Positions 1 through 49,953 of a DNA stretch of 50,251 nt are shown here, in pieces. The stretch is from contig JAKPKU010000213.1 of NCBI GenBank assembly GCA_029553545.1, positions 1 through 50,251 on the forward strand. Direction: 5' to 3'. Within the stretch, counting starts at the first letter, position 1. Every line of letters starts with the position of its first letter. A program made the position numbers and the translations under genes. Below the pieces are notes generated by a model. That model did not search any database, had not been told where the DNA came from, and saw only the letters and a list, made by a program, of their open reading frames with translations. The stretch comes from Candidatus Cloacimonadota bacterium. GTDB taxonomy: Bacteria; Cloacimonadota; Cloacimonadia; Cloacimonadales; WRIO01.

Positions 1-722
1 GCCATACCCATATTGGTAACGTCATCGCCACTATTTCTTTCATACATACCATAGTTTAATGCGAATGTAGCGTCTACATCAAAACCAAAGTTTGCATAGT
101 TAAAGAAAGGCATAATCCAGAAATCATTTTCTTGTTCGCCAGCGTTTGTCTTTTGTCTGTGTACTACAGTATTAAGACCAGTAGCCATGTCATCATTGAT
201 TTTGTAATCAACGTTGAACAAGAAACCGTCGCTATCTCTTGGATAAGCGTTGAATTGTGATTCTTCTAAAACAATGTAACCAAATTCTAAATCAAGGTTT
301 GGAGCAACATTGTCTTTTCTTAATAAGAGAACAGGAATTTCATCATCGAGTACAAGGCTTTTGTGATCAGCCCAGCTCATGAAACCAGCTTTAGCATTAA
401 GTGATGTAAATGGGCAAACCCAATTAACATAAGCTTCGTGAGTTTTTACGTCGATATTGTTTGACCAACCTGCATTACCTCCCCATACTAAGTTGCCTGA
501 TCTAAGGGAGTAAACGAAGTTTAAGTTTTTGTCAACTTGTGCATTTAAAGTGACATTAGCTCTTGAATCAACATAGTTTCCCGCTTCTAAGTCATTTAAA
601 ACCATGCCTAAGTCTTTGTACAATGACAATCTTGTTCTAAAATCTCCATTTACTGAGAAATTAGTAGCCATAAGACCAACAACTACCATTGTTAAAATGG
701 TTAATACAAGGATTTTTTTCAT
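1..722 (-). CDS. Outer-membrane beta-barrel (porin-like) protein, 3' end beyond window
   Basis: The frame is open from an ATG at 720-722 to the window edge, giving at least 240 residues with no stop, so the C-terminus is missing. The N-terminus MKKILVLTILTMVVVGLMA is a typical signal peptide. The mature part alternates polar and hydrophobic residues and contains many aromatic strand ends (FVYSLRSGNLVWGG, EAYVNWVCPF, FFNYANFGFDVDATFALNYG), as in porins of the alginate-export/OprD style. It presumably forms a channel in the outer membrane; the substrate is unknown. The ribosome site GGAGGTTCAAAAATG fixes the start. A near-consensus promoter lies about 35 bp upstream, so the gene is transcribed separately from the surface-protein unit upstream of it. 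Confidence 0.75.
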   Translation of the reverse strand, partial: MKKILVLTILTMVVVGLMATNFSVNGDFRTRLSLYKDLGMVLNDLEAGNYVDSRANVTLNAQVDKNLNFVYSLRSGNLVWGGNAGWSNNIDVKTHEAYVNWVCPFTSLNAKAGFMSWADHKSLVLDDEIPVLLLRKDNVAPNLDLEFGYIVLEESQFNAYPRDSDGFLFNVDYKINDDMATGLNTVVHRQKTNAGEQENDFWIMPFFNYANFGFDVDATFALNYGMYERNSGDDVTNMGM

Positions 723-1039
723 TTTTGAACCTCCATTTTAATTTTTATGAGTTTATATTACTGGATATACATTATTGTGTCAACATATTTTTTGCATTTG
801 CAAATAATAAAGAGTGCTCGATGATCGATCTATCTGTAAAATAGTAAGATAGCAATTGCTAAAAAAATGATTTATTGTAAAGAAAAATATACTAATAAAA
901 CATACATTTAGCTTAAATGCCTTAATCAATTCCCTAAAAGGAGAAAAACACCCTTTAAAAAGGCTATTTAATAAGAGATTGTTTAAATCAAAAAGTCGTC
1001 TTTGTATATAACTCTTGTGTATATAGTGCATATTGAACT
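723..1039. other. Intergenic stretch holding only a promoter
   Basis: Between the porin-like gene and the PorV-like gene I see the promoter at 755-783 and a short palindrome (TAGCAATTGCTA) near 855. There is no convincing terminator and no RNA gene. A 92-codon minus-strand frame crosses this stretch but lacks a ribosome site and overlaps the end of the PorV-like gene. Confidence 0.5.
755..783 (-). promoter_or_regulatory. Sigma-70-type promoter of the porin-like gene
   Basis: On the minus strand TTGACA (778-783) is followed after exactly 17 bp by TAATAT (755-760). The downstream ribosome site and ATG at 722 sit at a normal distance for a short leader. Confidence 0.75.
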
Positions 1040-2023
1040 CTACATTAATATATCGCATGACAGTCTAAATGTATTATGCTTTTCCCAATTTGTCTCTATT
1101 TGATATGCTAAATCAAGGAATATCTTGTATTTTTGCTTTGGATTGATATTAAATCCTGTGCCAAAAGAATACTTCTTGTTTTCACCAGTCATCATTTCTT
1201 GTGAATAACCCGTACAAATCGTCATAATGTCTTTAAAGAGAATGTAATCTACACCAACTTTTAAAACATCTTCTGTGTCTGAATGAATCGACTTATCAAG
1301 ATCCAAGGCAAATGAGTATTTTGAGCCAATTTTACCATAACCAAAGATAAGCGTTGTCGGTAAACCTTCGCTATACTTGCCACTTGCCGTTCCAACTTCA
1401 TTTTTACTATCCCATGTGATCGAAGAAATAGGGTTTTTGAGTACGAGTCCAAAATGATTATTATCTGCAAATTTTTTATGTAAAGATAGATCAACTGAAA
1501 ATCCAGTAGCATTTCCAGTGACTTGATGGTTCAAACCTGTGACAGGGTCGAGATAAGCGCCGTCTTCATTATTTCCAAATGAAGAGATGAGCAGCCTCAA
1601 ATTCATGCCAATATCGCAAGTTGGAAAGCTCAATCTATCTTTTAAATAATTCTCAGATATTGCTGAAGATAATATTATGCTTGTCTCAGACATTGCATCG
1701 TCTCCAGAGTAAATAAAGCCAATACCAAAAGTATTGTCTGTATTTGTTTTGTGCAAATAACCAAAGTATGAGTAAGAGTACAAATCTTGGATATTTGTAT
1801 TATCAAAACAAACAGAATTGTCGTGATTTGACTGTGTGCCAGCTGCAGGGTTCCAAATGATGCTACCTGCATTTTTGGTAATTGCAGTTTGAGCGCCACC
1901 CATCCCCATAGCTTTTGCGCCAAAACCAACGTCTAAAAAAGCTGATGGGATATTACTAAGATTATCTGCAAAAGCGGTAAGTGCGACACTTAATATGATG
2001 ATGATAAAAATAATTCTTTTCAT
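1040..2023 (-). CDS. PorV/PorQ-like outer-membrane protein
   Basis: This 327-residue protein has a signal peptide (MKRIIFIIIILSVALTAFA). The N-terminal block DVGFGAKAMGMGGAQTAIT...SIIWNPAA is the hallmark of the PorV/PorQ (UPF0164) family. These are FadL-like 14-stranded barrels; in type IX secretion bacteria PorV shuttles or anchors secreted proteins. The rest is barrel-like (LGVDYILFKDIMTICTGYSQ, YSFGTGFNINPKQKYKIFLDLAYQ). The start is fixed by a purine-rich GGGGGAATA just before ATG. It is the last gene of a three-gene surface unit, 10 bp after the 2913-residue protein, which carries a C-terminal sorting-type module. A role in handling that protein is a reasonable inference, not shown. Confidence 0.75.
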   Translation of the reverse strand: MKRIIFIIIILSVALTAFADNLSNIPSAFLDVGFGAKAMGMGGAQTAITKNAGSIIWNPAAGTQSNHDNSVCFDNTNIQDLYSYSYFGYLHKTNTDNTFGIGFIYSGDDAMSETSIILSSAISENYLKDRLSFPTCDIGMNLRLLISSFGNNEDGAYLDPVTGLNHQVTGNATGFSVDLSLHKKFADNNHFGLVLKNPISSITWDSKNEVGTASGKYSEGLPTTLIFGYGKIGSKYSFALDLDKSIHSDTEDVLKVGVDYILFKDIMTICTGYSQEMMTGENKKYSFGTGFNINPKQKYKIFLDLAYQIETNWEKHNTFRLSCDILM

Positions 2024-2033
2024 TATTCCCCCT

Positions 2034-5000
2034 TTATTTTATCAAGACAATGGCTTTGACATATTCTTTACGGTCTTTCGCATCTTCAACAATTAAGTGA
2101 ACTACATAGCGACCGTTACGCGCCATTCGATTATCATCTGTTTTGCCATCCCAATAGAGAGATGTTGTTTCGCCCATATCATATATTCCCTTTAAGAAGG
2201 CTTTTTGGTTGACGATAGTTCTCACTAATGTTCCATTTAGATTGTATATCTTGCAGGTAAGTTTTGGATATCGTGTGCTTCTTGAAGCTAATTTGAACGA
2301 TATTTGCAAGCCTTTATTGGCTCCAATTTGGTCATTTGGTGTAAATGGGTTTGGCAAGAGTTTCAAATCATATAAGCCTAAAGATAAAGAAGGGCTAAGC
2401 AAAGCGTATTGCCCCCAGTTTGGCATTTCTTGGACAATGATCGTTGAGCTTGCGCGTCTTACTTGGCTTGGCAAGTGTATCCAATGCATTTTATCTAAGT
2501 CCCAATTAGCAATTGTTTTGAGATTGATATTATCTTCATTTAATGTGTCAAAAGCAATGCCAGGCTTGGTAATGAAGTTTGGATTACCTGAGGATAATGC
2601 TTGGAATACCCTTCCTTCGACATCATATTCTGTGCCGTATTGCTGTACAGCAGAGACCTGTATTCTATTGAGATAAATATTAGCAGAGCCAGATGCAAGC
2701 ATATTTGCAGGCAAGAAAAGCTGGCAACCTAAGCCTGTATCTAATGTGTCAGCGGGAGTATTTGGAGTGATCAATTTAAAGACATTAACTTCTTTTTCTC
2801 CACTTACAACAAGGGTAGAGTCATTTGGATCTAATGCCTTAGCTTGAAGCATTATAGCACCGATATAATCAGGTTGTGGACTTAATTTAATGAGATTTCC
2901 ATTGATCGATAAACTGCCTTGATAGTCTTTAATTGCTTTGATAGAAGGCGTCACAGTCATAACTTCGCCACTATCACTCTTGGCAATAATACGGTAGTAA
3001 TTATTGACAATTGAATTATTGATCTCTTCATCGCCATCGATTGTAAGCTCGGCAAGTTTCATTTCTTTGATGGTAATTGGCGCACTCAGATTGATAGTGA
3101 TATCATTGAGCTTGATCTTTGCTTTGATGATATTTTGAGCATAATTCTCTGCATATGAAGGCGAGTAGAAATTAATGCTTCTTTTTTGTCCATTGACTTT
3201 TGCAAGGGAACCCAGTGTTGTGTCTGCAAGAGTCCATTCCACAGAGCCATTTAGATCAATAATGCTATTTAAGTCATTTTCTAATTCATCTAAGATATCT
3301 GCGGTAAAGGTTAATTTTTGATTATAGGTGATTAATGCGGTATTTGGTGTGATTGAGCTTGTGTTTTGTGAGATAATACCTGCTGAGGTAATCAACCAAT
3401 AATCAGGGTCGCTTTGATTTGTATAAGTAAGTCCATTTGCTTCTGATTCAGACATGAAGTAAAACTTTACTTCGCCAGACTTATTTTGAGCAGGGATATT
3501 GGCAATAAGCTCTTCATTATTCACGCCTATACCCATGATGCTTGAGCCCCATACATTGTTTAAGTTTTTATAATATAAGATAACATCATCTGTATAGTTC
3601 TCAGCTTTTATGAGTGTCACATTTATAGATTCATCACTGGCAACAGGTTCGATAATAGACTTATTAAAAGCTAAAGGTATTTGTTTTTCATGGGCAAGAT
3701 TACCAATACTGTCAAAGCTTATTGTATAGCTATTTGGTGCTAAATAGGTAATTGCACCCATTTCAGGTGGATTGATCTTCACTGAGTATTCACCCGTATG
3801 TAATATCTGTCCAGTGCTAATTAGCCCTTGACTATCGGTGATCAGATTAATTGGCTGTAAGAGGTTTTCACCCGATATTCTTACATTTACGAATTTAAAA
3901 GGCTCATTTTTATTATTCATCACTGTCAGCATATATTCGCAAAGGATATAATCAAAAAAGTGATCTAAGATGATATCATCGCCTGTCCAGTTAATATCAA
4001 TATTAGTAGAGAATTCTTCGAAGTCATAGATAGAGGTAATTCTGACATTTAAGGGGAAATTTGCCTCAATTAGTGAATTGAACTGGTAATAGCCACTATT
4101 GCTGGCATTTACAGAGTCGATGATGGTATTGGCATGGCTAATGACAACTTTTGTGCTTGTAGGTAGATCAAAGGTGTTTTCATCCAGCTTCATTTTGACA
4201 TAACCGCCGAGATTAATAGAATTTGGTATATAATTAAAGTTATGATCAAATACTGTATTTTCGCCTGGTGTCATGCCTATTACTTGAACTTTTTTGAAAG
4301 TATTATTCAGGTAACTGGCAATAATATCAATTGTAATATTAAAGTTATTTATTGGTAAGTTGATGTTTTCAATCAGGTAATCGCTGGTATCGTGATAAAC
4401 CTGCACTATTGGGTCAGCCTCAGGGATATAGATAGTGACTGTCATTTGAGCAGGTGCAACAATTTCATATGGTTCTTCTGTTTGATCTGTAATGGTGATA
4501 GCGCCGCTAATGCTTGCTGGTAATTGCTTTAATTGGAAGCTAACTTGTGCGACAGGATTGTTTTCAGTTAAATTTGCTATGACAGAAGATGAGTTTGCAT
4601 AATATTGTTTTTTAGCATAGACTTGATATTCACCAAAGTTAGGTACAGATAAGCTATACTGTCCATTTGAATTAGTGGTAGTTTGGTAAGTATTATCATC
4701 TATTGTAGCATAGACAGTCGCATCAGGTAAGGGGTCAAGCTTTGTGTTGGTAACATTTCCATAGATCACCTTGCTCTTTGGTGTCATAGAGAATTGGACT
4801 TGGCTTGGATTTGATACACCATTTAGAAGTGTCACTGATATATCATCGACGGGATTATATGCCCCATGACTTGCAGACAATTGGTATGTGCCGTCTGCAA
4901 TATTAGCAAAGTTGAAAGAACCTGAACTATTAGTATTCATTGTATTGAGGATCTCATCGTTTTGTTTTAGATTTATTACAACACCTTGAATACCTTCAGA

Positions 5001-8000
5001 GGTCTCATTATTAATCGCAGAACCTGAGATGCTATTTCCCATATAAGTTAAAGTGAAGTGTAAGGGGTCGCTGATTTCGCCAGCATTAACTTGGACAGTA
5101 GGAAATTCTTCATTGACAGTATAGCCGTCCTTTATCACTTGAATATAATAAGTTGCGCCAGTTAAGCCTGTGAGAGTAAAGGCACCATTAGTATTTGAGC
5201 TGGTGGAAAAAACTCGTCCAGTGTTGACATTTGTTGCGATGATTGAGGCACCAGCAATTCCTTGATTATTATACATAATATCGCCAGGTATGCTTGCAGC
5301 TTGCATCAAATCAATGTCTTGAATAATGTATTCTCCTGGGATAATGGTGACCTCTTGTTGATATGATACAAGGTTGCCAGAGTTTGCCCATACCTTGTGA
5401 TAGCCTATGATATTAGAAATGATATAATCGCCATCATCATTTGTTGTTGTCGTGTATGTGTCACCTTGAATATTAATTGCGCGTACTGTGGCGTATGCAA
5501 TGGGGCTGTTTTGGTATTTTACTGTGCCTATGACGCTATTTGGCACCCCAGATAAACCGACATTAACAAAGATCGAGTCCACAGCTAATGTATTGGGGTG
5601 GGTGTAGTTTAGGTATCCTGTTTTGGTCACGCTTAATTGATAGTTAATGCCTTCAGTAGCGCTGAATGTAAATGAACCATTTTCTCCTGTTTGTGCCAAG
5701 ACAAAGCTCTGTGTGTTTTCATTTACCAGTTTGACTGTTGCATTTTGAACAGATTGTCCGAGATAATTGTGTACAAAGCCAGCTATTGATCCTTCAAGCG
5801 GCTGTAAGGTGATAGGTAATACTTGGGTATCGTTATCAGCTAAGGCAATATTTTGAGACGTGTATGACTGATAACCTGCACTGTTTACTTTTAATTGATA
5901 ATCGCCTTCGTATAGATGAGTAAAGGAGAATTGTCCATTTGTACTTGTAGTAAAGTTGATTTCTTCATTATTTGATAATTTCTTTAAAGTAACAAGCGCA
6001 TTATTGATGAATGCACCACTCAGATTAGCCACAGCACCAGATATTGAAGCATTGTGAATATCAATAATCAGAGGTTCTATTTGAACATTAATATTTGCTG
6101 TATTAAATGTCCTGCTTGCATTATCGTGTGTAGTTGGATTGAGATTCGTACCTATTGTGAGATTAGTTTTATATGGTAGCACATTGGTAAATTCATATTC
6201 GCCATTACTGTTTGTAGTGGTAGTCAGATTTAGCCCAGAGCCGCTAATATTTACTTGAGTATTAGCTTGAGGTCTATTGCTCGTGTCTTTGACCAAGCCG
6301 CTAACAGTAATAGGTTGGCTATACTGTAATTGTATGTTTTTTGTGATGCTTTCATTATAGGCAATAGGCACATTTAGTAGGCTATCAGGCTTATATGAAT
6401 CTTTGTTAAACTTGATCTTTAAAGTGCCATTATAGAGATTATTAATGACATATGTGCCATCCGTTTGTGTCGTAGTTGTTCTCGATAAGCCACTAAGAGA
6501 ATTATATGTTGAGACAGTCACGCCAGGTATTGGTGCCTGAGTATTCTGATCAATGACAATTCCTGAGAGAGTTGAAGTATGAACTTGCATTGTCAAGTTT
6601 ATGCCGGTGACATTATTAACAGTAATAATTTGAGTAATGGTCGTATTTTCCCAGCCAGGTTGAACTTTATTTGTAGAGATCTGATAAGTTTTATTTGGCG
6701 ATAGACCATTAAGGGTAAATTGCCCTGCGCTGTTTGTGGTAGCTTGAATTGAGATATCTTCAGAAACCGCTTTTACAGGGATATTAGCTAAAGCGCTACC
6801 TAATTGGTTTTTCACCAAGCCTGATATAGTGATATTATTTGGTATCATGGTAATATGTTTGTTTTGTACAGGCGTGCTATTTGGAAGAGCAACAGATAAT
6901 GTATTAGTTTGATTGTAATTGCTCAAGGTAGCTGTAATGATATAGGTATTATTTGTTTGTAAATTATTCAGCACATAATTACCACTGGCATCACTGATTG
7001 CAGAGCCAGAAAACCCTCCACTTGTACTAACTGCACTTATTTGTGCATTTGCCAGACCATCGCCAGCGCCATTTGGTTGATTGGTAATCTTTCCAGATAT
7101 CGAGCCGATTGCCTGTACGAGAGTGAAAGATAAAGACTGCGAACCATTTGCGGGGATAGTAACACTCTGTGTTTGTGGGTAGTAATTTGTTTTGGAGACA
7201 GTCACATTGAGTGGTACTTGAGGTGTGATGCCCTGTAGTTCTGTAAGTTGAGCAGTAGTTGTGTAGTTATTAATAGCGCTTGTAACAGAGTTTTCAATAG
7301 TGATCGTAGATCCTGTTTGATTACAGGTGATAGCCAATTCGCCAGTTAATGGAATCATAGTGATATTTTTGAGTATATTTTGATTACCAGGTATAGATAG
7401 ATTAATAACAGTAGCGGTTTGATAGTTATTTCGTGTCACTGTTACTGTATAGTTACCAGGTACAAGGTTGTTTATTTGATAGTCACCATTTTGATTAGTA
7501 ATTGCCGAGCCACCGCCGCCAATGCTGCTTGTGGCAGTGACAGTAGCATTTTGTAAAGGATTGGCATTGATACTATTTGTTATTTTGCCTCTCAAAGTGG
7601 AGAAGTTCGTATTAATAATGAAGTTTTTATTTGCAAGACTTTGCCCAGGATTGATCGTAAATGTGCTATCAGAGTTGGTATAACCCAGCTTTGATACATT
7701 AATATTCCAGGTACCATATTGCAAGCCGAGTGTATAATTACCAGTTGCACTTGAATTGATCTGTATAGTCTGTGTGCCTTTACTTGCAGAGATGACGGCA
7801 TTAGTAATAGCATTTCCATTCTGGTCAAATATCTTGCCGGAGATAGAAGCACTTTGCCCTGCAATCGTCAGATTTCGAGTATAAGTTTCACCGATATTAG
7901 AGGGGTTTTGCATAGTATAGCTATTGGCTGTATAACCAGAAGCGCTCGCAGTAATGGTATATCTCTTACTTGCAGGAACGTTTAGAGTATAAGAACCGTA

Positions 8001-10775
8001 GATATTAGTCACAGTAGAAAAAGTATTGTTCACATTATTTACTTCTGTGATTGTGATATTTGCATTTCTTACGACTGTGCCTTGGTCATTGGTAATCGTG
8101 CCATTCATCGTTGTTTGATTCAGAATCATGACAATATTCTTTTGGCTAATTGTTGCTCCAGCAGCGACAGTCACACTAATTGGATTTTGGGTCAGCATAC
8201 CTGTTTTGGTCGCTGAAAGCTGATAAGTACCTGCCGTGAGATTAAGCGAATAATTGCCGAGCCCATCAGTATTAATTGGCGTAATAGGAATCATATTTGA
8301 GCCGCTGACTCTAAAGCCTGTTATTTGAGCGGAGGCAACGCCAGAGCCATTTAATAATGCTTTACCTGAAATCACACCAGGGTTGGCATTTAACGAGAAG
8401 TTAACCCCTGATGTTGTTTGTCCGATACTAACAGAGATATTAGTCTTTGTATCTGTGATATAATCTGCTTTTTGCGCTACGACATTATAAGTGCCCGCAG
8501 AGACGGACATTGTAAAAAAGCCCGCTGCATTTGTTTGCGTAGTAAAATTGCCCGCTGTGATATTTGCATTTGCAACAGGATTGCCAGAGCTGGTCACTGT
8601 TCCATTGATATATGATTGATTGGGGTATAAGATAAAGTCATTTGCATGGATAGTCTCACCAACTGTGACATTTACATATCGTGTATTTTGTGTTGTATAG
8701 TTAGATTTGCTTGCGGTAATCGTATAATTACCCTGTGGAATGTTTAGCGTATAATTACCGTATTCATTGGAAATGGCAGTGATAGGCGTGCCACTTATTG
8801 GAGTTGCAGTAATCAGACAGCTTGGAATACCAACAGTACCATTGCCTGTATTACCCGTTAATACATTTGCTCGTGGTGTCATTAATGCATCCATGAGGTT
8901 TGTATTTGTGGGAGAGGTCGCTGATATCGTAAGCTGATAATTGTTCGGTGCAGAATAACCTGTTTTGCTCCAGCTGATAGTCCACGTACCAGGTTCTAAG
9001 CCGTTAAATTGATAAGCGCCATTACTATTTGTTGATTTTGTATAGCTCAAAGAGCCTTTCGTAGCTATTACTGTCACTGTTGCAATGGCTGATCCAGAAG
9101 GTAATTTTGTATAGCCAGAGATATTCTTTGTGTTTTGATTCATCACAATAGTCGTCATTGTTGTCGTTTGCCCAGAGCTAATATTTGTTTGTGCAGTATT
9201 TGTGGCAGTATAGCCTTCTTTTTGTGCAGAAACAGTCCAAACACCAGGCGTTACAGCTATACTATAACTACCATTTGAGGCAGATACTTTTCTTATTTCG
9301 CCCGTACTTTTGGTGGCTGTTACTTGCACATTGTTTAATGCATTGCCACCAGATGTGACAGCTCCCACTAAGAAGGCGGGAGAATAATCTAAGACTATAT
9401 TAATAATTGTATCGCCAGTTGAATCAAAGCTTGTTGATCCTGGTTGATAAATAAAATCATCTTTTAAAACTGTGACGAGCGTGTCTCTTGTTTCATAACC
9501 AGCTTTTGAAGCTGAAAACAGATATTGCCCTACTGGTAATAATTTACGCTCAGCGCCAGCAGCGTCAACGGTAAGGGGTACATTATCCATAGTACCCTCG
9601 ATAGCATCGACAATCACACTTGAAAAACCAAGAGATACGCCTTGCCTATTCTTGATGGTAATGTTTGCTGTACCTGTCGGTATTGTATAGTTAAAGCTTC
9701 TCACATTACTTGAGGCTGAGACATTGTTTTCACTTGTAGCGATCACTTTCCATACATAAGTAGATTGAATTAAAACATTTTCTGCTTGGAAGTCAACAAT
9801 ATTATTAGTGGTAATCTGATTCCAAATAGGGTAAAGGACTTCACTGCCAGCTTCAACTCTCTTTTCATAGAGGAAAATATGGTAGGTGACAGCAGAAGGA
9901 ATATTGTCCCATTGGAAAGTAATAGTCTTAGCATTGACAAAATTCTGATTTGCTGTTGGTTGACTTAAGACAGGTGCAGGAATTGTAGGGCTTGAATAGT
10001 AGAAGCTACTTGGATTACCCGTCACATCAGAAGAGTAAAGCGGTGAGTTGCCAAAGTTGCTCATTACCACCCAGTTATATTCTTTGCCATTGATAAGTGG
10101 CGGTGGTGTAATATGATTAAAATTATCAGACGGGTCAGGGCTACCGTAGGTGATTGAAGTGTTTGGTGTGATAGCTTGCCAGATTAAATTAAGCCCATTG
10201 ACAATTAATTTATCGTTTTCATCATAAGAAAGAGTAAATGGCTGATCAGATAGAACAATATAATAATAAGGCACGCCCGAAATAGGCTGCCAGGAGAAGG
10301 TAGGAGTAGCATTATTTGTAATAGTGCTGCCATTTAGAGGTTGAGCTGTCGCCACGCCAGATGAGGGCTGGATAATCAATTGAAACTCCATTGACTGGTC
10401 ATTTGAGTTTGGATCTTTAATTACACAATAGTAGAGCCCGACACCAATGCCCAACTGTTGTGCATTAGTGCTTATGGTGCGTGTATTACCTGTTGCAGAG
10501 CTATTTACATTTGCCATAGTGTACGGACCACCAGGGCTTTGTGAATAGTAGAATTTTGCATTAATACTGGAAGGTTGCCAGCTAACTTTAAAAGTCCTGT
10601 TGGGCTTATACATATCCATTGGTATTTCAGTTAATACAATGGAATTATTTGTGTTCATTGGATGGTAAAGTATGTCTTGATTGTATGGAGCGGCAATGTT
10701 TAATTGGCTTTGGCTTGCGTATAAAGTCATCATAGCAAGCAGTATCAGCGATAGTATTAAGTATTTTATTCTCAT
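2034..10775 (-). CDS. Giant secreted protein with about 20 carboxypeptidase-regulatory-like repeats and FlgD-like C-terminal module
   Basis: The product is 2913 residues with signal peptide MRIKYLILSLILLAMMTLYAS. Residues about 40-370 hold fibronectin-III/Ig-like strands with Trp-rich motifs (PTFSWQPISGVPYYY, TFQWDNIPSAVTYHIFLYEKR). From about 385 to 2280 there are roughly 20 tandem units of 65-95 residues of the form (I/L)xG.(V/I)....A.V.A......T.T...G.Y....L..G.Y.(V/I).....Y, the carboxypeptidase D regulatory-like (transthyretin-like) fold. Residues about 2800-2913 form a FlgD-Ig/T9SS type A-like module (LLPNPFTPN, KIYNLNGTLVRT, YWDGKTDDN, NGRYVVHLIVED). Asn, Thr and Ser are abundant and Cys is rare. 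It is probably a long surface fibre or adhesin, with function unknown. AAGGAG sits just before the start and overlaps the end of the preceding gene, so the two are co-translated. Confidence 0.85.
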   Translation of the reverse strand: MRIKYLILSLILLAMMTLYASQSQLNIAAPYNQDILYHPMNTNNSIVLTEIPMDMYKPNRTFKVSWQPSSINAKFYYSQSPGGPYTMANVNSSATGNTRTISTNAQQLGIGVGLYYCVIKDPNSNDQSMEFQLIIQPSSGVATAQPLNGSTITNNATPTFSWQPISGVPYYYIVLSDQPFTLSYDENDKLIVNGLNLIWQAITPNTSITYGSPDPSDNFNHITPPPLINGKEYNWVVMSNFGNSPLYSSDVTGNPSSFYYSSPTIPAPVLSQPTANQNFVNAKTITFQWDNIPSAVTYHIFLYEKRVEAGSEVLYPIWNQITTNNIVDFQAENVLIQSTYVWKVIATSENNVSASSNVRSFNYTIPTGTANITIKNRQGVSLGFSSVIVDAIEGTMDNVPLTVDAAGAERKLLPVGQYLFSASKAGYETRDTLVTVLKDDFIYQPGSTSFDSTGDTIINIVLDYSPAFLVGAVTSGGNALNNVQVTATKSTGEIRKVSASNGSYSIAVTPGVWTVSAQKEGYTATNTAQTNISSGQTTTMTTIVMNQNTKNISGYTKLPSGSAIATVTVIATKGSLSYTKSTNSNGAYQFNGLEPGTWTISWSKTGYSAPNNYQLTISATSPTNTNLMDALMTPRANVLTGNTGNGTVGIPSCLITATPISGTPITAISNEYGNYTLNIPQGNYTITASKSNYTTQNTRYVNVTVGETIHANDFILYPNQSYINGTVTSSGNPVANANITAGNFTTQTNAAGFFTMSVSAGTYNVVAQKADYITDTKTNISVSIGQTTSGVNFSLNANPGVISGKALLNGSGVASAQITGFRVSGSNMIPITPINTDGLGNYSLNLTAGTYQLSATKTGMLTQNPISVTVAAGATISQKNIVMILNQTTMNGTITNDQGTVVRNANITITEVNNVNNTFSTVTNIYGSYTLNVPASKRYTITASASGYTANSYTMQNPSNIGETYTRNLTIAGQSASISGKIFDQNGNAITNAVISASKGTQTIQINSSATGNYTLGLQYGTWNINVSKLGYTNSDSTFTINPGQSLANKNFIINTNFSTLRGKITNSINANPLQNATVTATSSIGGGGSAITNQNGDYQINNLVPGNYTVTVTRNNYQTATVINLSIPGNQNILKNITMIPLTGELAITCNQTGSTITIENSVTSAINNYTTTAQLTELQGITPQVPLNVTVSKTNYYPQTQSVTIPANGSQSLSFTLVQAIGSISGKITNQPNGAGDGLANAQISAVSTSGGFSGSAISDASGNYVLNNLQTNNTYIITATLSNYNQTNTLSVALPNSTPVQNKHITMIPNNITISGLVKNQLGSALANIPVKAVSEDISIQATTNSAGQFTLNGLSPNKTYQISTNKVQPGWENTTITQIITVNNVTGINLTMQVHTSTLSGIVIDQNTQAPIPGVTVSTYNSLSGLSRTTTTQTDGTYVINNLYNGTLKIKFNKDSYKPDSLLNVPIAYNESITKNIQLQYSQPITVSGLVKDTSNRPQANTQVNISGSGLNLTTTTNSNGEYEFTNVLPYKTNLTIGTNLNPTTHDNASRTFNTANINVQIEPLIIDIHNASISGAVANLSGAFINNALVTLKKLSNNEEINFTTSTNGQFSFTHLYEGDYQLKVNSAGYQSYTSQNIALADNDTQVLPITLQPLEGSIAGFVHNYLGQSVQNATVKLVNENTQSFVLAQTGENGSFTFSATEGINYQLSVTKTGYLNYTHPNTLAVDSIFVNVGLSGVPNSVIGTVKYQNSPIAYATVRAINIQGDTYTTTTNDDGDYIISNIIGYHKVWANSGNLVSYQQEVTIIPGEYIIQDIDLMQAASIPGDIMYNNQGIAGASIIATNVNTGRVFSTSSNTNGAFTLTGLTGATYYIQVIKDGYTVNEEFPTVQVNAGEISDPLHFTLTYMGNSISGSAINNETSEGIQGVVINLKQNDEILNTMNTNSSGSFNFANIADGTYQLSASHGAYNPVDDISVTLLNGVSNPSQVQFSMTPKSKVIYGNVTNTKLDPLPDATVYATIDDNTYQTTTNSNGQYSLSVPNFGEYQVYAKKQYYANSSSVIANLTENNPVAQVSFQLKQLPASISGAITITDQTEEPYEIVAPAQMTVTIYIPEADPIVQVYHDTSDYLIENINLPINNFNITIDIIASYLNNTFKKVQVIGMTPGENTVFDHNFNYIPNSINLGGYVKMKLDENTFDLPTSTKVVISHANTIIDSVNASNSGYYQFNSLIEANFPLNVRITSIYDFEEFSTNIDINWTGDDIILDHFFDYILCEYMLTVMNNKNEPFKFVNVRISGENLLQPINLITDSQGLISTGQILHTGEYSVKINPPEMGAITYLAPNSYTISFDSIGNLAHEKQIPLAFNKSIIEPVASDESINVTLIKAENYTDDVILYYKNLNNVWGSSIMGIGVNNEELIANIPAQNKSGEVKFYFMSESEANGLTYTNQSDPDYWLITSAGIISQNTSSITPNTALITYNQKLTFTADILDELENDLNSIIDLNGSVEWTLADTTLGSLAKVNGQKRSINFYSPSYAENYAQNIIKAKIKLNDITINLSAPITIKEMKLAELTIDGDEEINNSIVNNYYRIIAKSDSGEVMTVTPSIKAIKDYQGSLSINGNLIKLSPQPDYIGAIMLQAKALDPNDSTLVVSGEKEVNVFKLITPNTPADTLDTGLGCQLFLPANMLASGSANIYLNRIQVSAVQQYGTEYDVEGRVFQALSSGNPNFITKPGIAFDTLNEDNINLKTIANWDLDKMHWIHLPSQVRRASSTIIVQEMPNWGQYALLSPSLSLGLYDLKLLPNPFTPNDQIGANKGLQISFKLASRSTRYPKLTCKIYNLNGTLVRTIVNQKAFLKGIYDMGETTSLYWDGKTDDNRMARNGRYVVHLIVEDAKDRKEYVKAIVLIK

Positions 10776-10785
10776 ATCTTACTCC

Positions 10786-12357
10786 TTAAAAATTCCAGGT
10801 AAAACTTGTACGCAGAAATGGATTGGGTAAAGCGACAATATTTATATCCATTAGAGTGTTTTTTGTAATATTAAAGCCAGTTCCAACAGCTATCGTGGGG
10901 ATAATAATATTTTTCATTGGTTTGACTGGTAGCCCATCATCGTCTTTGAGACCGTCAGCAATCTGATCCATAATAAATATTTGTGTGCTAAAGGCAAAGT
11001 TCTTCCAGCCTGCAGCGAGTTTGATATTTTGTTTTGGTTTTACGCCAACTTTATAGTGTAAGCGCGTTGTATCAGCATATGCTTCAAAGGTGTTTTCTTC
11101 AATATTTTTCTTTTGACCATCTCTGTATCTGTCGCATTTATAATCAAGGGATAATTCGCCAAATGGTATTTCAAGAGAGAAGATAAACTTAAAGTCTTTA
11201 TTAATATAGGTTGTTGCTAAGGCAAGATTACCAGGAATATTTACTTTCAGATCATCGCTGAGATAGACGGTTCTATTGGTATAAGCAATCTGAGAAGGCT
11301 TTAATAGCTCAACGTCAAACATTTCCTCATCATCATCTGTGCCTGGTATCCCATCTTCACCATCTTTTTCATAACTCATTTTTAGGGCGCCTAATGTGTG
11401 CTGAACAATGTATAAATCACCATTTAGCTTTGTATTCATGGGTGCATTAAAAACAAGGTCAAAATAAAACTTCGGGCTTACATGCCATGAAATAGCGAAG
11501 TTTGAACTTACTAAATTATTGTTAAAATCAACTCTAATTGTGTCGTTCATCGTATTTCGATACACAACATTTGGGTCGTCAAATGCCACATTTATATCTG
11601 TATCACCACCATATTGTCTAATAAAACCGCCTATTTTGGCATCAAGTCCACTTTCGATAGTGAGGCGATTGACATTTAAACCCGCTCCAACTGATACCTT
11701 TTCATTGAGAGATTTACCCCAAGAGATATTCGCTGTTTGCATACTAAATACACTGTTTGCAAGGAGCTCTATGCTCAAAGGTAGCACGGTTTTTTCAGTG
11801 TATTCAGTTTCTTGTCCCACGTCTTTTAAGACAGAATCTTCTACGACAAATTCAATACTATTACCCAAAAAATTCATATCAAGATAGAATGGACGATACC
11901 ATGTGAAGCCAATATTTCCCATTGCAAGCCCAGTATGGGTAACAGATACATTGTTTAATAAACCGCTTTGCCCAGCATTCATCTCAAGCTTTGGGTATAT
12001 CTTTTCGATATTTGGTGATTCTGTGTCTTCTATCGCAGAGTCTACAGCATCATTTACAGCATCTTTTAAAAAGCTTGATAGGTTAAAACTAAAGCCTGGC
12101 GCTGCGTCAATTGCAATCATTGATTTATCCATAAATCCTAAAGCCGCGGGGTTTAAAACATTCATGGATGGATCAACAACAACTGATGAAACGGAATTTC
12201 CAAAGTTTCTACTTCTTGCGGTTAAACCTGATAAAAATGAATTGTAGAAGTAAAGATTTAGTTGGTGTTTACCTCCATTGAATTTGGTAATTTGATTATC
12301 AGAAAACAATAAAGATAAGCATAAGGCAATGATTACGAGTATTACATATCTTTTCAT
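10786..12357 (-). CDS. Outer-membrane barrel protein (FadL/PorV-like)
   Basis: This 523-residue protein starts MKRYVILVIIALCLSLLFS (signal peptide). The early motif VVVDPSMNVLNPAALGFMDKSMIAIDAAPG resembles the N-terminal hatch region of FadL/TodX and PorV-type barrels. The remainder is strand-like with Asp/Glu-rich loops (EKDGEDGIPGTDDDEE, likely a Ca-binding loop in style) and ends in a barrel-type aromatic terminus, SFTWNF. I chose the ATG at 12355-12357 rather than an in-frame GTG six bases upstream. GGAGG lies about 5 bp from the ATG but abuts the GTG. It is the first gene of the three-gene surface unit, driven by a strong promoter. Substrate or partner is unknown; helping to export or anchor the giant protein is inference. 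Confidence 0.65.
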   Translation of the reverse strand: MKRYVILVIIALCLSLLFSDNQITKFNGGKHQLNLYFYNSFLSGLTARSRNFGNSVSSVVVDPSMNVLNPAALGFMDKSMIAIDAAPGFSFNLSSFLKDAVNDAVDSAIEDTESPNIEKIYPKLEMNAGQSGLLNNVSVTHTGLAMGNIGFTWYRPFYLDMNFLGNSIEFVVEDSVLKDVGQETEYTEKTVLPLSIELLANSVFSMQTANISWGKSLNEKVSVGAGLNVNRLTIESGLDAKIGGFIRQYGGDTDINVAFDDPNVVYRNTMNDTIRVDFNNNLVSSNFAISWHVSPKFYFDLVFNAPMNTKLNGDLYIVQHTLGALKMSYEKDGEDGIPGTDDDEEMFDVELLKPSQIAYTNRTVYLSDDLKVNIPGNLALATTYINKDFKFIFSLEIPFGELSLDYKCDRYRDGQKKNIEENTFEAYADTTRLHYKVGVKPKQNIKLAAGWKNFAFSTQIFIMDQIADGLKDDDGLPVKPMKNIIIPTIAVGTGFNITKNTLMDINIVALPNPFLRTSFTWNF

Positions 12358-12386
12358 ATACACCTCCAGTATACTTAATAATAAAG

Positions 12387-12415
12387 ATTAAACCATTTGT
12401 TATCTATTTTGTCAA
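12387..12415 (-). promoter_or_regulatory. Sigma-70-type promoter of the surface-protein unit
   Basis: On the minus strand TTGACA (12410-12415) is followed after 17 bp by TTTAAT (12387-12392, five of six consensus bases). The first ATG lies 30 bp downstream with GGAGG in between. Confidence 0.75.
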
Positions 12416-12471
12416 TATAAATATTATTATTTTTAATATTTATTAATAATCATCTTATAAGAAAGTATGAT

Positions 12472-12577
12472 AAATCACATCTAACCAGCTCGTAGCAAGC
12501 ATCTGCTGATTTGAAGGGTAATAGTTTTCATAAAGCTCCATTTTGTCTTGCCTATATAGAGATGGTACTGTTTTTTT
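12472..12577 (+). repeat. Dispersed palindromic element, copy 1 (diverged)
   Basis: This copy carries the family landmarks in order: AAATCACATCT at the left end, GCTCGTAGCAAGCATCTGCTG, ATAGTTTTCA, CCATTTTGT, CTATATAGAGATGGT and a terminal T-run. It is the most diverged of four copies in the window, and the inverted right end has decayed (GATGGTACTG instead of GGTGATG). It lies in the 330-bp gap between the surface unit and the next minus-strand gene. No coding potential is visible. Confidence 0.7.
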
Positions 12578-12609
12578 AATCATATATCTTCTTTATTCTC
12601 GATAATATC

Positions 12610-12636
12610 AAAAAAAAGACCCCCATTATGGGGGTC
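12610..12636 (-). terminator. Intrinsic terminator of the 701-residue secreted protein gene
   Basis: Read on the minus strand, a perfect 7-bp stem (GACCCCC/GGGGGTC, positions 12618-12636, 5-nt loop) is followed directly by eight T residues (12610-12617). It lies about 50 bp after the stop codon of the gene at 12688. Confidence 0.9.
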
Positions 12637-12687
12637 GAACTCTATAATTCTAAGAATTTATTTACTCGTTTTTACAAAACCTCTCTG

Positions 12688-14793
12688 TTATTTCATCAAG
12701 ATCATTTTACGAGTAGAGGTGTATTTTCCAGATTTCATATTGAAAAAATAGATGCCACTGCTGACTTTTTTACCATTATCATCAGTGCCATTCCAATTTA
12801 TAGTGTGAAGTCCAGCGCTTTGCCGTTCATTTATTAGTGATCTTATCTTTTGCCCTTTGACATTGTAAATATCAATTGCCACATTACCCTCATTAGCTAA
12901 TTCGTATTTGATTGTAGTAGAAGGATTGAAGGGGTTTGGATAATTGCTTATCAAGCTTGTCTGCTTTACTGAAGGGAGTATTTCTTCAATAGAATTTGGT
13001 CCATCAACTTCCACAAAGTCAATTTTAACTGCAAAATTATCTGTGCAATCATAGTGTCTGAAAGCTATGTAAATATCTTGTCCAGCATATGGCAAACTAA
13101 CTGTTTTCTGCTCCCAATTTGTAAAATTAATAGTTTCGGAGAACACTTCTGAAAAGCTGGATAATTCGGTATCTGTGGTTGAAACAAAGATGCCATAATG
13201 TTCTTCACGATAACTTGGGTCTTGTGGCGCCACCCAAAATGTTAATGTACTTGCTACACCTGCTGCCAAAGAGAGTTGTGGAGTAATCATCCAGTTATCG
13301 GGTGTTAATGCACCAACGCCATTTTTATATGACAGTGAACCTGCACAAGCCACACCATTATAAGGCGTATTGGTAAATCTATACCAATTGAGCTCATCAG
13401 CATCATTATCTACAATTTCCCAGCCCTCAGGGGGAAAATCACCATCGAAGCTTTCTGATAAAATAATATATCTTACAGGTAAAACAATGGTAGGATGTGT
13501 ATATTCAGCTTGATTGATGATAATATCGGTCTCAACAATAGGTTGATAGCCATCTTTAACAACTTTTAAATTGTAAAGTCCATGCCAAACATCAAGAAAA
13601 CTGGTAGCCTCTGAACTTGCTGTAGCAGAGTAAATATGAGTTAAATTGCCATCTTGATTTGTAAGGGTAATCATTGCTCCTTCAGGCGATACACCGTCTT
13701 CGGTAGCTAAAACGATAGTGACATCACAGGTCATGTTTTTATAAATAGTATTTGAAAAAGCAGGCGCAGAAATGCCGTCTGTATATACTGCTTTGACAAC
13801 GTATTTGAACTCGCCAGTAGCAACATCAGCCCAGGTTTCATCAATGTAGTTTGTTTCTGTCAGGTTAGTTGCAATAGGAGTCCAGGTATTTTCATTGTTC
13901 ATCGATGCGATTGGCGTTCTCCAAACATTATAGCCTGTGAGTGTGCGAGTATTTTGCCTATAATTTTCTGTTGATGATAATTGTGTAAAGTCATTATTTT
14001 TTGCAATATAAACTCCATTTGCAGAAGCCTTTTTTAAAATACTTGTTTCTCTTTTATTCATAGAAATAAGATCAGTATTTTGTGTAGAATCATTACCAAA
14101 TACGATACTATTTACTTCGCTTGCACCTGAAGCCAATCCTTTAATCATCCAATTTGCATCAGAATCAGCGAGCATATCAAGTGTATACCAGCCATCTTCT
14201 AAGAAAATCATATTGCCATAATTGCCAATAGCGGGGCCTGCATCACAGCAAGCGGGAAAGCCTGTTGGGGTCGAGATGCTAATAGCAATCCATAGCTCGC
14301 CCTCAGTTGGGATGGTGATGCTTTGAGATAATTCAACTTCTGTCCACTGCTGCTCAATCATGTTTGGAACAGCTTGGGTTAAAGCAAGAGAGCCAGGAGT
14401 AGCATTAGATCCACCAATATAGATTTTTAAAGTATATGAAGCAGAAGGTTCATGTCCCATAAACTGAACTTTTGTCAAGGTTGCACCGGACACGCCAAAA
14501 GCTTGAAGCTGGCTTTGTGAGAAGCGTTGAGCAACTTCAAAGTCTATTGGTCCACCAGTGCCTATAGCATCGTCAAAAGTATTTGCTTGGGTGTGACTAA
14601 ACCATACATCAATGCCCGTTTCTGGATCATTCCAGGTGAGATCTACTTGGTCTTGTGTTGAGTTTGCAAGGACTCCAGTAGGGGGCATAAACTCGTCTTC
14701 TAAAACCCTTTGTGTTTGAGCCCAAAGCCCAAAGCTAAGAGTCAGAGCAAAAACCAGAAATAGAATTTGAAGTAATTGTGATTTCTTTTTCAT
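12688..14793 (-). CDS. Secreted adhesin-like protein with T9SS-type C-terminal module
   Basis: The product is 701 residues. The signal peptide is MKKKSQLLQILFLVFALTLS. The start at 14791-14793 has AAGGAG at good spacing; a frame extending upstream to 14850 would begin inside the promoter. Residues to about 230 form a beta domain with FnIII-like strands (VDLTWNDPETGIDVWFSH), followed by a second FnIII-like segment and a carboxypeptidase-regulatory-like unit (about 350-430). Residues about 440-600 match the cleaved-adhesin/choice-of-anchor J type (ESFDGDFPPEGWEIVDND, NWMITPQLSL). The C-terminus from about 615 is the classic sorting module (NYPNPFNPSTTIKYEL, VKGQKIRSL, DDNGKKVSSGIYFF). It is probably an extracellular or surface adhesin or matrix protein, transcribed alone between its own promoter and terminator. 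Confidence 0.8.
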   Translation of the reverse strand: MKKKSQLLQILFLVFALTLSFGLWAQTQRVLEDEFMPPTGVLANSTQDQVDLTWNDPETGIDVWFSHTQANTFDDAIGTGGPIDFEVAQRFSQSQLQAFGVSGATLTKVQFMGHEPSASYTLKIYIGGSNATPGSLALTQAVPNMIEQQWTEVELSQSITIPTEGELWIAISISTPTGFPACCDAGPAIGNYGNMIFLEDGWYTLDMLADSDANWMIKGLASGASEVNSIVFGNDSTQNTDLISMNKRETSILKKASANGVYIAKNNDFTQLSSTENYRQNTRTLTGYNVWRTPIASMNNENTWTPIATNLTETNYIDETWADVATGEFKYVVKAVYTDGISAPAFSNTIYKNMTCDVTIVLATEDGVSPEGAMITLTNQDGNLTHIYSATASSEATSFLDVWHGLYNLKVVKDGYQPIVETDIIINQAEYTHPTIVLPVRYIILSESFDGDFPPEGWEIVDNDADELNWYRFTNTPYNGVACAGSLSYKNGVGALTPDNWMITPQLSLAAGVASTLTFWVAPQDPSYREEHYGIFVSTTDTELSSFSEVFSETINFTNWEQKTVSLPYAGQDIYIAFRHYDCTDNFAVKIDFVEVDGPNSIEEILPSVKQTSLISNYPNPFNPSTTIKYELANEGNVAIDIYNVKGQKIRSLINERQSAGLHTINWNGTDDNGKKVSSGIYFFNMKSGKYTSTRKMILMK

Positions 14794-14822
14794 TTTGATC
14801 TCCTTAATACTCTTTTTTTCAC

Positions 14823-14850
14823 AAATTATTTGCTTTTGTTTTACTGTCAA
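14823..14850 (-). promoter_or_regulatory. Promoter of the secreted adhesin-like gene
   Basis: On the minus strand TTGACA (14845-14850) is followed after 16 bp by TAATTT (14823-14828). The same -35/spacing/-10 combination precedes the tRNA-tuf cluster at 40613-40640. Confidence 0.55.
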
Positions 14851-38709: not shown

Positions 38710-38785
38710 TGGCAGGACAGGCAGGATTCGAACCCGCAACTTTCGGTTTTGGAGACCGACGCTCTACCAGTTGAACTACTATCCT
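38710..38785 (-). tRNA. tRNA-Trp (CCA anticodon)
   Basis: The cloverleaf has acceptor AGGATAG/CTGTCCT, D-arm TTCAACTGGTAGAG, anticodon stem-loop CGGTCTCCAAAACCG with anticodon CCA, T-arm GCGGGTTCGAATCCTGC and an encoded 3' CCA. It lies between rpmG and secE, as in many bacteria. Confidence 0.95.
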
Positions 38786-38796
38786 TTAACATCTGT

Positions 38797-38946
38797 TTAT
38801 CGGGTTTGCTTGTGCTGTGTATGTTTACGGCAGGTAGGACAGAATTTCTTAAATTCCACTCTATTTGGATGTTTTCTCTTATTCTTGGTCGTAGTATAAT
38901 TTCTATTCTTACACTCTTCGCAAGCAAGTACTATGATATCTCTCAT
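38797..38946 (-). CDS. rpmG: 50S ribosomal protein L33
   Basis: A 49-residue basic protein, [20 protein letters not shown] at the start and [16 protein letters not shown] at the end. Two Cys pairs (CEEC, CPTC) form the zinc ribbon of the zinc-containing L33 form; KNKRKHPNR is the family core. It lies between tuf (14 bp) and tRNA-Trp, the standard place. AAGGAAAGATAA precedes the ATG. Confidence 0.94.
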
Positions 38947-38960
38947 TTATCTTTCCTTAA

Positions 38961-40145
<1,185 letters not shown>

Positions 40146-40193
40146 TTTTCCTCCCAGACTTAAGTTAATTCTTTATTATATTTTTTTAAAAAA

Positions 40194-40269
<76 letters not shown>

Positions 40270-40308
40270 TAAAACTTCACGACTCAGAAGCCCTGTCGTA
40301 AGTATATA

Positions 40309-40385
40309 TGGAGCGGGAAACGGGGTTCGAACCCGCGACCCTCAGCTTGGAAGGCTGATGCTCTAGCCAACTGAGCTACTCCCGC
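40309..40385 (-). tRNA. tRNA-Gly (UCC anticodon)
   Basis: Acceptor GCGGGAG/TTCCCGC, anticodon stem TCAGC/GCTGA with loop CTTCCAA (anticodon TCC), T-arm GCGGGTTCGAACCCCGT and encoded CCA. Confidence 0.95.
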
Positions 40386-40433
40386 TTATATATGCGAAAA
40401 AGACAGTCAAAAAATGACTGCTCTCGCAAAAGA

Positions 40434-40518
40434 TGGTGGAGAGGGAAGGATTTGAACCTTCGAAAGCTTCGCTGACAGATTTACAGTCTGTTCCCTTTGA
40501 CCACTCGGGAACCTCTCC
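40434..40518 (-). tRNA. tRNA-Tyr (GUA anticodon)
   Basis: An 85-nt class II tRNA with a long variable arm (CAGCGAAGCTTTCG region). Acceptor GGAGAGG/CCTCTCC, anticodon stem ACAGA/TCTGT with loop CTGTAAA (anticodon GTA), encoded CCA. A small CAGTCA/TGACTG stem lies between it and tRNA-Gly. Confidence 0.95.
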
Positions 40519-40525
40519 ACAAATA

Positions 40526-40600
40526 TGGAGCCAATGAAGGGAATCGAACCCCCAACCTAGTGATTACAAATCACTTGCTCTACCATTGAGCTACATTGGC
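40526..40600 (-). tRNA. tRNA-Thr (UGU anticodon)
   Basis: Acceptor GCCAATG/CATTGGC, D-arm GCTCAATGGTAGAGC, anticodon stem AGTGA/TCACT with loop TTTGTAA (anticodon TGT), T-arm GGGGGTTCGATTCCCTT and encoded CCA. It is the first gene of the whole minus-strand cluster. Confidence 0.95.
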
Positions 40601-49761: not shown

Positions 49762-49838
49762 TGGCGGGAGAGACGAGGCTCGAACTCGCGGCCTTCTGCG
49801 TGACAGGCAGACGTTCTGACCAACTGAACTACTCCCCC
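49762..49838 (-). tRNA. tRNA-Asp (GUC anticodon), distal copy
   Basis: Acceptor GGGGGAG/CTCTCCC, D-arm GTTCAGTTGGTCAGAAC, anticodon stem TCTGC/GCAGA with loop CTGTCAC (anticodon GTC), T-arm GCGAGTTCGAGCCTCGT, encoded CCA. Identical in sequence to the copy 38 bp upstream. Confidence 0.95.
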
Positions 49839-49876
49839 TCTATAAAATTATAAAAAGATCATTAGCGGAATTAAAA

Positions 49877-49953
49877 TGGCGGGAGAGACGAGGCTCGAAC
49901 TCGCGGCCTTCTGCGTGACAGGCAGACGTTCTGACCAACTGAACTACTCCCCC
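49877..49953 (-). tRNA. tRNA-Asp (GUC anticodon), proximal copy
   Basis: Same 77-nt sequence as 49762-49838, anticodon GTC with encoded CCA. A promoter lies just upstream, so both are probably processed from one transcript. Confidence 0.95.

Follow-up and report, generated by a model that had tools for sequence, protein, structure and literature searches.

The window analysed here, a stretch of 50,251 nt (positions 1 to 50,251 of contig JAKPKU010000213.1, assembly GCA_029553545.1, Candidatus Cloacimonadota bacterium; genome of 268 contigs and 2.88 Mb, called G000 below), carries on its minus strand a trio of genes encoding a FadL-like barrel, a giant repeat protein with a putative type IX C-terminal domain (CTD), and a PorV-like barrel (Table 1). 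The results below suggest that the trio is probably a self-contained unit for one type IX cargo, a giant fibre with a private PorV-type carrier or anchor. All three reading frames are intact and both intergenic gaps are exactly 10 bp, in agreement with a preliminary description of this DNA, made from its letters, in which the genes were packed with gaps of about 10 bp. The same description set the unit at 2034-12357; this range covers the giant and the FadL-like barrel and omits the PorV-like gene at 1040-2023, although that protein was described, and 12357 is an in-frame ATG within a 525-residue frame that begins with a GTG at 12363. Hydrophobic N-termini were seen by eye, with no signal-peptide predictor, in all three proteins.

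Table 1. Features of the trio and its immediate surroundings (aa, amino acids; ORF, open reading frame; Ig, immunoglobulin)
Feature	Coordinates	Strand	Basis
FadL-fold outer-membrane beta-barrel, 525 aa, trio gene 1	10786..12363	-	ORF, AlphaFold2
Giant surface protein, 2913 aa, 315 kDa	2034..10775	-	ORF, Pfam
Giant, N-terminal part, aa 25-468, beta-domains by eye	9372..10703	-	Conservation profile, 8 giants
Giant, repeat array, 18 transthyretin-like (CarboxypepD_reg) domains, aa 469-2088	4512..9371	-	Pfam and own repeat model
Giant, Ig-like module preceding the CTD, aa 2448-2797	2385..3434	-	AlphaFold2, structural alignment
Giant, CTD, aa 2798-2913, putative type IX secretion/targeting signal	2034..2384	-	Profiles, conservation
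Barrel of the PorV family, 327 aa, a putative private carrier or anchor of the CTD	1040..2023	-	Profile matches
Promoter-like TTGACA-17-TTTAAT, candidate, ahead of the trio	12387..12415	-	Pattern scan
Hairpin resembling an intrinsic terminator, after the neighbouring gene and ahead of the trio	12618..12636	-	Hairpin scan
Neighbouring type A type IX cargo (Cleaved_Adhesin and Por_Secre_tail), outside the trio	12688..14850	-	Pfam, NCBIfam

The giant protein and the two barrels

Pfam identified 18 CarboxypepD_reg stretches in the giant (E 2e-185), which bears out the initial view of a 2913-residue protein with about 20 transthyretin-like repeats. A model built from the protein's own repeats returned 18 domains at i-E <= 0.01 between residues 469 and 2088, and 0 in 20 shuffled copies. 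The full-length relatives in G001, G116, G097, G023, G031, G021, G118 and G090 have at least 19, 22, 21, 21, 22, 21, 17 and 6 repeats, respectively, all lower bounds because the repeat model derives from the window protein. Mean pair identity over 8 of the 9 giants (the G001 protein was omitted as a near-copy) reached 0.48-0.56 at residues 131-370 and 0.65 over the C-terminal 116 residues, against 0.38 for the array and 0.34 for the Ig-like module. This profile and the range of 6-22 repeats indicate two conserved ends flanking a stalk of varying length. Domains of this kind span about 3.5-4 nm each, and a fibre formed by the window protein could, by this per-domain length, be perhaps some 70-100 nm long. 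Giants of one family (f9; L016, L017, L018, L042, L043 and L044) possess an extra N-terminal domain with a WTHNDSG-like string, with WAHNDSG, WSHNDSG and WLHNDSG as variants in some giants; L041 starts similarly, and the one such domain tested (L016) had no Pfam match.

The C-terminal module (aa 2448-2913) was modelled by AlphaFold2 with a mean predicted local distance difference test (pLDDT) score of 86.2. It resembles Ig-type chains of S-layers and adhesins at Z about 10, mostly with a large root-mean-square deviation (rmsd), and Foldseek returned generic Ig-type and other beta chains. Aligned to PorU (6za2), the module gave a Z of 10.4 with an rmsd of 23.6 over several domains, and its last 117 residues (model residues 350-466) aligned to the C-terminal end of PorZ (5m11) with a middling Z of 8.5 (rmsd 2.9 over 88 residues). 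The preliminary description had called this end a sorting-type module; its last 116 residues do match FlgD_ig (23.9 bits) and CHU_C (23.6 bits), both below the 27-bit cut-off.

We compared the CTDs of the 12 loci that share this subtype, 10 with giants and two with miniature proteins described below. At E <= 0.1 the type A model TIGR04183 matched 5 of the 12 and the type B model TIGR04131 matched 1 (best E 0.027, in a protein other than the window's); filing the CTD under type A or type B was rejected, as both models score below their cut-offs. Because the PorU model touches all 12 CTDs, we considered filing the domain as PorU-like and therefore uncleaved, and dropped this since, among tails from this phylum, the CTD profile fits four of type A-like kind (98.3% in hhalign, E 1.6e-14) better than four from PorU (95.4%, E 1.7e-8). 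With the type A-like tails it shares aligned motifs over residues 10-101, including PNPF and a W.G..D.G stretch; unlike type A CTDs it is 116 aa long and under the family cut-off, and its subtype stands apart by score, none of the candidates scored in 124 genomes falling in between.

The PorV-like protein matched NF033709 (PorV_fam) at 75.3 bits (E 6e-21, below the 90-bit cut-off), and a profile of the 12 PorV-like proteins matched the solved PorV structure (6h3i chain F) at E 6.6e-9, with the best stretch at profile positions 1-104, consistent with the earlier label "PorV/PorQ-like". At E <= 0.001, PorV_fam matched 10 and PorVQ2 all of these 12 proteins. Assignment to PorP/SprF was rejected, there being no TIGR03519 match above cut-off; across 21 genomes this model gave weak matches in 8 and none above cut-off, and in the window's genome it matched once, weakly (19 of 90.55 bits), at a PorV-family gene elsewhere.

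The upstream barrel, described beforehand as "FadL/PorV-like", had no match to any Pfam family up to E 1, Toluene_X included, or to any NCBIfam model. The description is nevertheless supported by its predicted structure (AlphaFold2, mean pLDDT 78.6), which aligned with CymD (Z 27.6, rmsd 5.2, 329 residues aligned), FadL (Z 27.3, rmsd 4.5, 302 aligned), a chain of a Flavobacterium BAM complex (9n2d_B, Z 26.6) and PorV (Z 23.8 and 23.5). In its predicted fold it agrees with the FadL/TodX/CymD channels (Z 24-28), from which it differs in sequence (10-16% identity) and in lying directly ahead of a giant at 12 of 12 loci. A stretch conserved across the FadL-like members lies around residues 246-271 of the window protein, partly in a low-confidence loop. 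The low-confidence loop at aa 327-358 contains the string DGEDGIPGTDDDEE, and an acidic stretch is kept there in relatives.

Distribution and co-inheritance of the trio

A single-sequence search located the FadL-like gene in 5 of 58 genomes, and a profile search in 12 of 124 genomes of the phylum, with 11 strong matches and a weak one in G037 (E 5.6e-4) that has no giant beside it and was excluded from the trios. The 11 strong genomes hold 12 loci, two of them in G118, and at every one the giant follows the FadL-like gene directly; at L039 (G118), L043 and L044 only the giant's start is on the contig and was recognised by eye. The contig of L039 holds a second FadL-like gene and giant start for G118, and the frame of this giant is apparently interrupted. 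Strong matches (> 500 bits) to the giant's C-terminal 470 residues occurred in 10 of the 124 genomes, with at most 13 candidates scored per genome; one of the ten is G121, whose contig starts within the giant. All 10 loci that extend past the giant have a PorV-like gene after it, at a gap of 4-13 bp in eight of them, the exceptions being G118 (104 bp) and G121 (about 760 bp). Conservation of the gene order extends over two families of the order and one more family of the class, and the flanking genes differ between distant carriers, within the stretches read. Upstream of the trio in G097 and G096 (L042:12692-15711 and L043:625-3635) there are similar genes, judged by eye from the printed ends, for a 274-aa protein, a response-regulator-like protein and a 198-204-aa protein, and G086 (L044:647-2353) shares only an end like that of the 274-aa protein. 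Local regulation of the trio by the G097 and G096 genes is possible.

The CTD subtype was found at 12 loci in the 124 genomes (10 giants at 184-204 bits and two short proteins at 148 bits; next best, 46 bits) and the PorV subtype coincided with it at every locus, at 426-517 bits against 74 bits for the runner-up. High scores are expected here, as both models derive from these very 12 loci. What the searches of the 124 genomes add is that, with at most 37 (CTD) and 17 (PorV) candidates scored per genome, there was no 13th and no unpaired copy of either subtype. Two of the 12 loci are miniatures, in which a signal-like start is joined to the CTD in a protein of 154 aa (G008) or 161 aa (G009) encoded 13-14 bp before the PorV-like gene; the PorV-like protein of G008 has 328 aa. 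No FadL-like match was obtained in either genome by the profile search of the 124. These free-standing proteins lie at L077:10812-11276 and L078:10625-11110 with the PorV-like gene next to them; in L078 a 669-aa CTD-type protein comes next, and one of the same length is on the opposite strand in L077.

A tree of 43 PorV-family proteins was built from 31 of the 33 fetched paralogue loci (L115 and L117 were left out) and the 12 trio and miniature proteins, with a midpoint root for drawing. One branch (98/93) sets the 10 trio members apart from the rest, and another (100/99) does so for these ten plus the two miniatures. The proteins of the trio also diverge in step (r 0.75-0.88, a level reached by no more than 2 of 2000 permutations), a result that joint descent alone would give as well. 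This comparison used 9 of the 13 trio loci; the FadL-like gene is cut by the contig end in G118 and G090, and for alignments A1 and A4 its start in L018 was set 54 codons inside the ORF. A CTD scan of viral contigs and a plasmid scan with the window's PorV-like protein found nothing.

Type IX components and other PorV-family genes

The window's genome contains an SprA homologue in a 2070-aa frame matched over three stretches (best 212 bits, 521 together, cut-off 200). SprA was above the model cut-off in 29 of the 31 genomes searched and in 0 of 14 control genomes, and the trio genomes in this search (G000, G001, G021 and G023) were all positive. A second, half-size family with short SprA-like matches at model positions of about 580-690 is represented by G000:C250:14943-15086 and by frames of roughly 1100 aa in other genomes of the SprA search. 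The genome also carries a PorU-PorV pair (Peptidase_C25 at E 3e-70 plus a FlgD_ig tail, 15 bp ahead of a PorV-family gene) and 58 type A sorting-domain matches, 56 of them over cut-off. The preliminary description had proposed a dedicated export or anchoring module, to be given up if the genome had no type IX component and the three genes were not co-conserved. On both counts the opposite was found: the gene order is kept across families, and full-length SprA, a PorU-PorV pair and type A cargo are present; a PorL/PorM-type motor was not found above cut-off. These results support the proposal, which was right in essentials, and the co-segregation of the PorV-like protein with the CTD points to a carrier role. 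As to earlier work, the term type IX secretion occurs in PMC8542988 solely in the reference list, excerpts of PMC11285876 state only that such a system is possibly present in Cloacimonadota, and the titles and abstract beginnings of the literature on type IX secretion or PorV in Cloacimonadota, and on PorV paralogues or shuttles, describe no such trio.

To place the trio among other PorV-family genes, we considered the PorV_fam matches at E <= 0.001 in four genomes. These amounted to 44 loci, of which 35 were examined (33 fetched loci, the window's and the G008 miniature); the other nine are short or weak partial matches and G031:C11. Two of the 35 have no upstream gene on the contig, leaving 33 assessable, and 21 of these lie directly behind a gene with a CTD-like tail, the PorU-PorV pair being one such case. 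The gaps in the 19 newly fetched pairs range from -4 to 114 bp, with a median of 10 bp. Of these pairs, 15 are backed by a Pfam CTD family (FlgD_ig, Por_Secre_tail or CHU_C; E <= 0.1), 11 above the family cut-off, and adding the miniature and the trio, both below cut-off, gives Pfam support to 17 of the 33; L086, L093, L100 and L106, which belong to one family, have no Pfam CTD match and were counted as CTD-type by the look of their tails. Counted by PorV family (our own grouping from the tree), 7 of 11 have a CTD-type neighbour, with a chance probability of 6e-9 at a 3% background, based on the genome's 58 CTD matches and an assumed total of about 2,500 genes. Three further cargo-PorV pairs occur in all four genomes (L086/L093/L100/L106, L088/L095/L103/L108 and L091/L096/L105/L113). 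At L112:1-1483 (G031:C165), directly behind a CTD-type gene, a PorV-like sequence is fused to an OmpA domain (E 7.7e-16) in a frame that extends past the fetched stretch, perhaps a PorV carrier tied to the cell wall.

Around the trio, the single strong promoter of the preliminary description is reduced to a candidate. The sequence TTGACA-17-TTTAAT is indeed present at 12415-12387; the pattern was written post hoc from the sequence, occurs 4 times against 2.0 expected when one mismatch is allowed, and shows no visible conservation in the nearest relative. Promoter-like strings are common in this region: a simple scan of positions 1-14000 gave 62 of them where 56.4 would be expected. When ten further proteins of the window were scanned, nine had housekeeping-type matches (rpoB, rpoC, EF-G, DnaB and others) and the protein at 1-722 had no match. 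Seven tRNA genes lie on the minus strand at 38713-40600 and 49765-49953, the last two (49765 and 49880) scoring equally.

Proposed mechanism, alternatives and significance

As a private type IX unit, the trio would work as follows. The giant would cross the inner membrane via Sec, the SprA translocon would recognise its CTD, and the repeat chain would pass out. The PorV-family protein of the trio would take the CTD from the side gate of SprA and keep it, so that the fibre is moored in the outer membrane, and the 6-22 transthyretin-like repeats would serve as a length-variable stalk that holds the conserved N-terminal tip off the cell. The FadL-fold barrel may work with the body or tip of the giant and not with the CTD, because the genomes with CTD-only loci gave no match to it. 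A link to the tip or the Ig module is more likely than one to the array, as G090 keeps the barrel with only 6 repeats found.

The role of the PorV-like protein as carrier and mooring of the giant is proposed because of the SprB-SprF precedent in Flavobacterium johnsoniae. Type B cargo of this species depends on cognate PorP/SprF carriers (PMC12618676, PMC9143113, PMC10994853), the carrier genes commonly lie directly downstream of the cargo (PMC12618676), SprF binds SprB, and these carriers are FadL-family barrels (PMC9143113). The trio resembles SprB-SprF in its very long repetitive surface protein, its C-terminal secretion or targeting domain and the putative carrier gene of the FadL family directly downstream. 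It differs in that the putative carrier belongs to the PorV family and not to PorP/SprF, the CTD falls outside type B, the giant is preceded by an additional FadL-fold barrel, there are miniatures with the CTD alone, and GldL and GldM have no match above cut-off. PorU and PorV of Porphyromonas gingivalis offer a second parallel. PorV shuttles type A cargo, and PorU, a CTD-bearing surface protein, is thought to be anchored through PorV (PMC5562754); in that system, in the PorU-PorV pair of the present genome and in the trio alike, the gene with the CTD immediately precedes the one of porV type. The cargo of the trio would be a repeat fibre instead of a sortase, and its PorV-like protein is on another branch than the PorU-linked PorV of the genome. 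Judged by sequence, the trio is best read as a new variation on SprB-SprF, in which the carrier would come from the PorV family, the CTD belongs to a subtype outside the known classes, and a second barrel is added, in a phylum for which PMC11285876 says only that type IX systems may be present.

Several results weigh against a private type IX unit. The trio is patchy, being found in 11 of the 124 genomes by its FadL-like gene, or 12 counting G121. The CTD of the window's giant reaches only 13.6 bits with TIGR04183, below the 23-bit cut-off, and is not among the 58 type A matches of its genome. The GldM and GldL models each gave 0 matches above cut-off in 21 genomes and 1 weak match, with none in the window's genome; these searches had no type IX-positive control, and the absence may therefore reflect sensitivity. 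Alongside SprA and many CTD proteins, the missing GldL and GldM could mean either divergent versions or another motor. Among the assessable PorV-family genes, 12 of 33 have no CTD-type gene directly upstream. Between families, the similarity of CTDs and that of PorV proteins correlate at r 0.66 with the trio-miniature pair and 0.14 without it. A general prediction of carrier similarity from CTD similarity thus failed, the correlation deriving from that one pair, and general CTD-PorV co-evolution by a lock-and-key rule is not supported.

Three other explanations, not all mutually exclusive, were weighed. The giant could be an ordinary type A-like cargo of the general PorV and PorU, its CTD cut off and its body released or linked to lipopolysaccharide, with the adjacent barrels unrelated and kept for common expression. 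The closer fit of the CTD profile to type A-like tails than to PorU tails argues for this, as do the genome's own PorU-PorV pair and its many type A matches; we nevertheless regard it as unlikely, given the type A score below cut-off and the pairing of CTD and PorV subtypes, which holds at 12 of 12 loci, including those reduced to the CTD alone. It is somewhat more doubtful still that the FadL-like barrel is the carrier or membrane anchor of the giant and the PorV-like protein structural or PorQ-like. PorP/SprF carriers are also FadL-family barrels (PMC9143113), PorV is among the structural matches of this FadL fold (Z 23.8), and its gene directly precedes the giant at every one of the 12 loci; however, the two CTD-only genomes retain the PorV-like gene and have no FadL-like match, and the barrel gene precedes the giant, unlike PorP/SprF carrier genes, which commonly come right after their cargo (PMC12618676). 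Least probable of all is a substrate-uptake unit, in which the FadL-like barrel would import a hydrophobic compound captured at a distance by the long protein and secretion would be secondary: CymD, FadL and TodX are among the closest solved folds and part of the giant's N-terminal region is conserved, as expected of a binding part, but fold sharing at 10-16% identity to these channels shows no function and no transport or metabolic gene recurs beside distant trios in the stretches read.

With the trio read as a private unit, a broader picture may be drawn tentatively for the phylum: in Cloacimonadota type IX secretion, the PorV carrier might have multiplied into cargo-private versions, each encoded behind its special cargo, that do the job of PorP/SprF in Bacteroidota, possibly with a motor other than GldL/GldM, and the trio might be the most elaborate case, with a fibre of up to about 3160 residues moored by a PorV-type carrier of its own and a second, FadL-fold barrel. 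In type IX secretion it is an open question how a single translocon can direct many cargoes to different destinations. The question has been studied with PorV (type A) and PorP/SprF (type B) in Bacteroidota, and the match of a CTD subtype with a PorV subtype is a further pairing, seen in another phylum. The natural miniature of G008, a 154-aa CTD protein with a 328-aa PorV-like partner, would make the contact between CTD and carrier directly testable. Together, these results suggest that PorV-family genes may serve as pointers to their own cargo in uncultured genomes.

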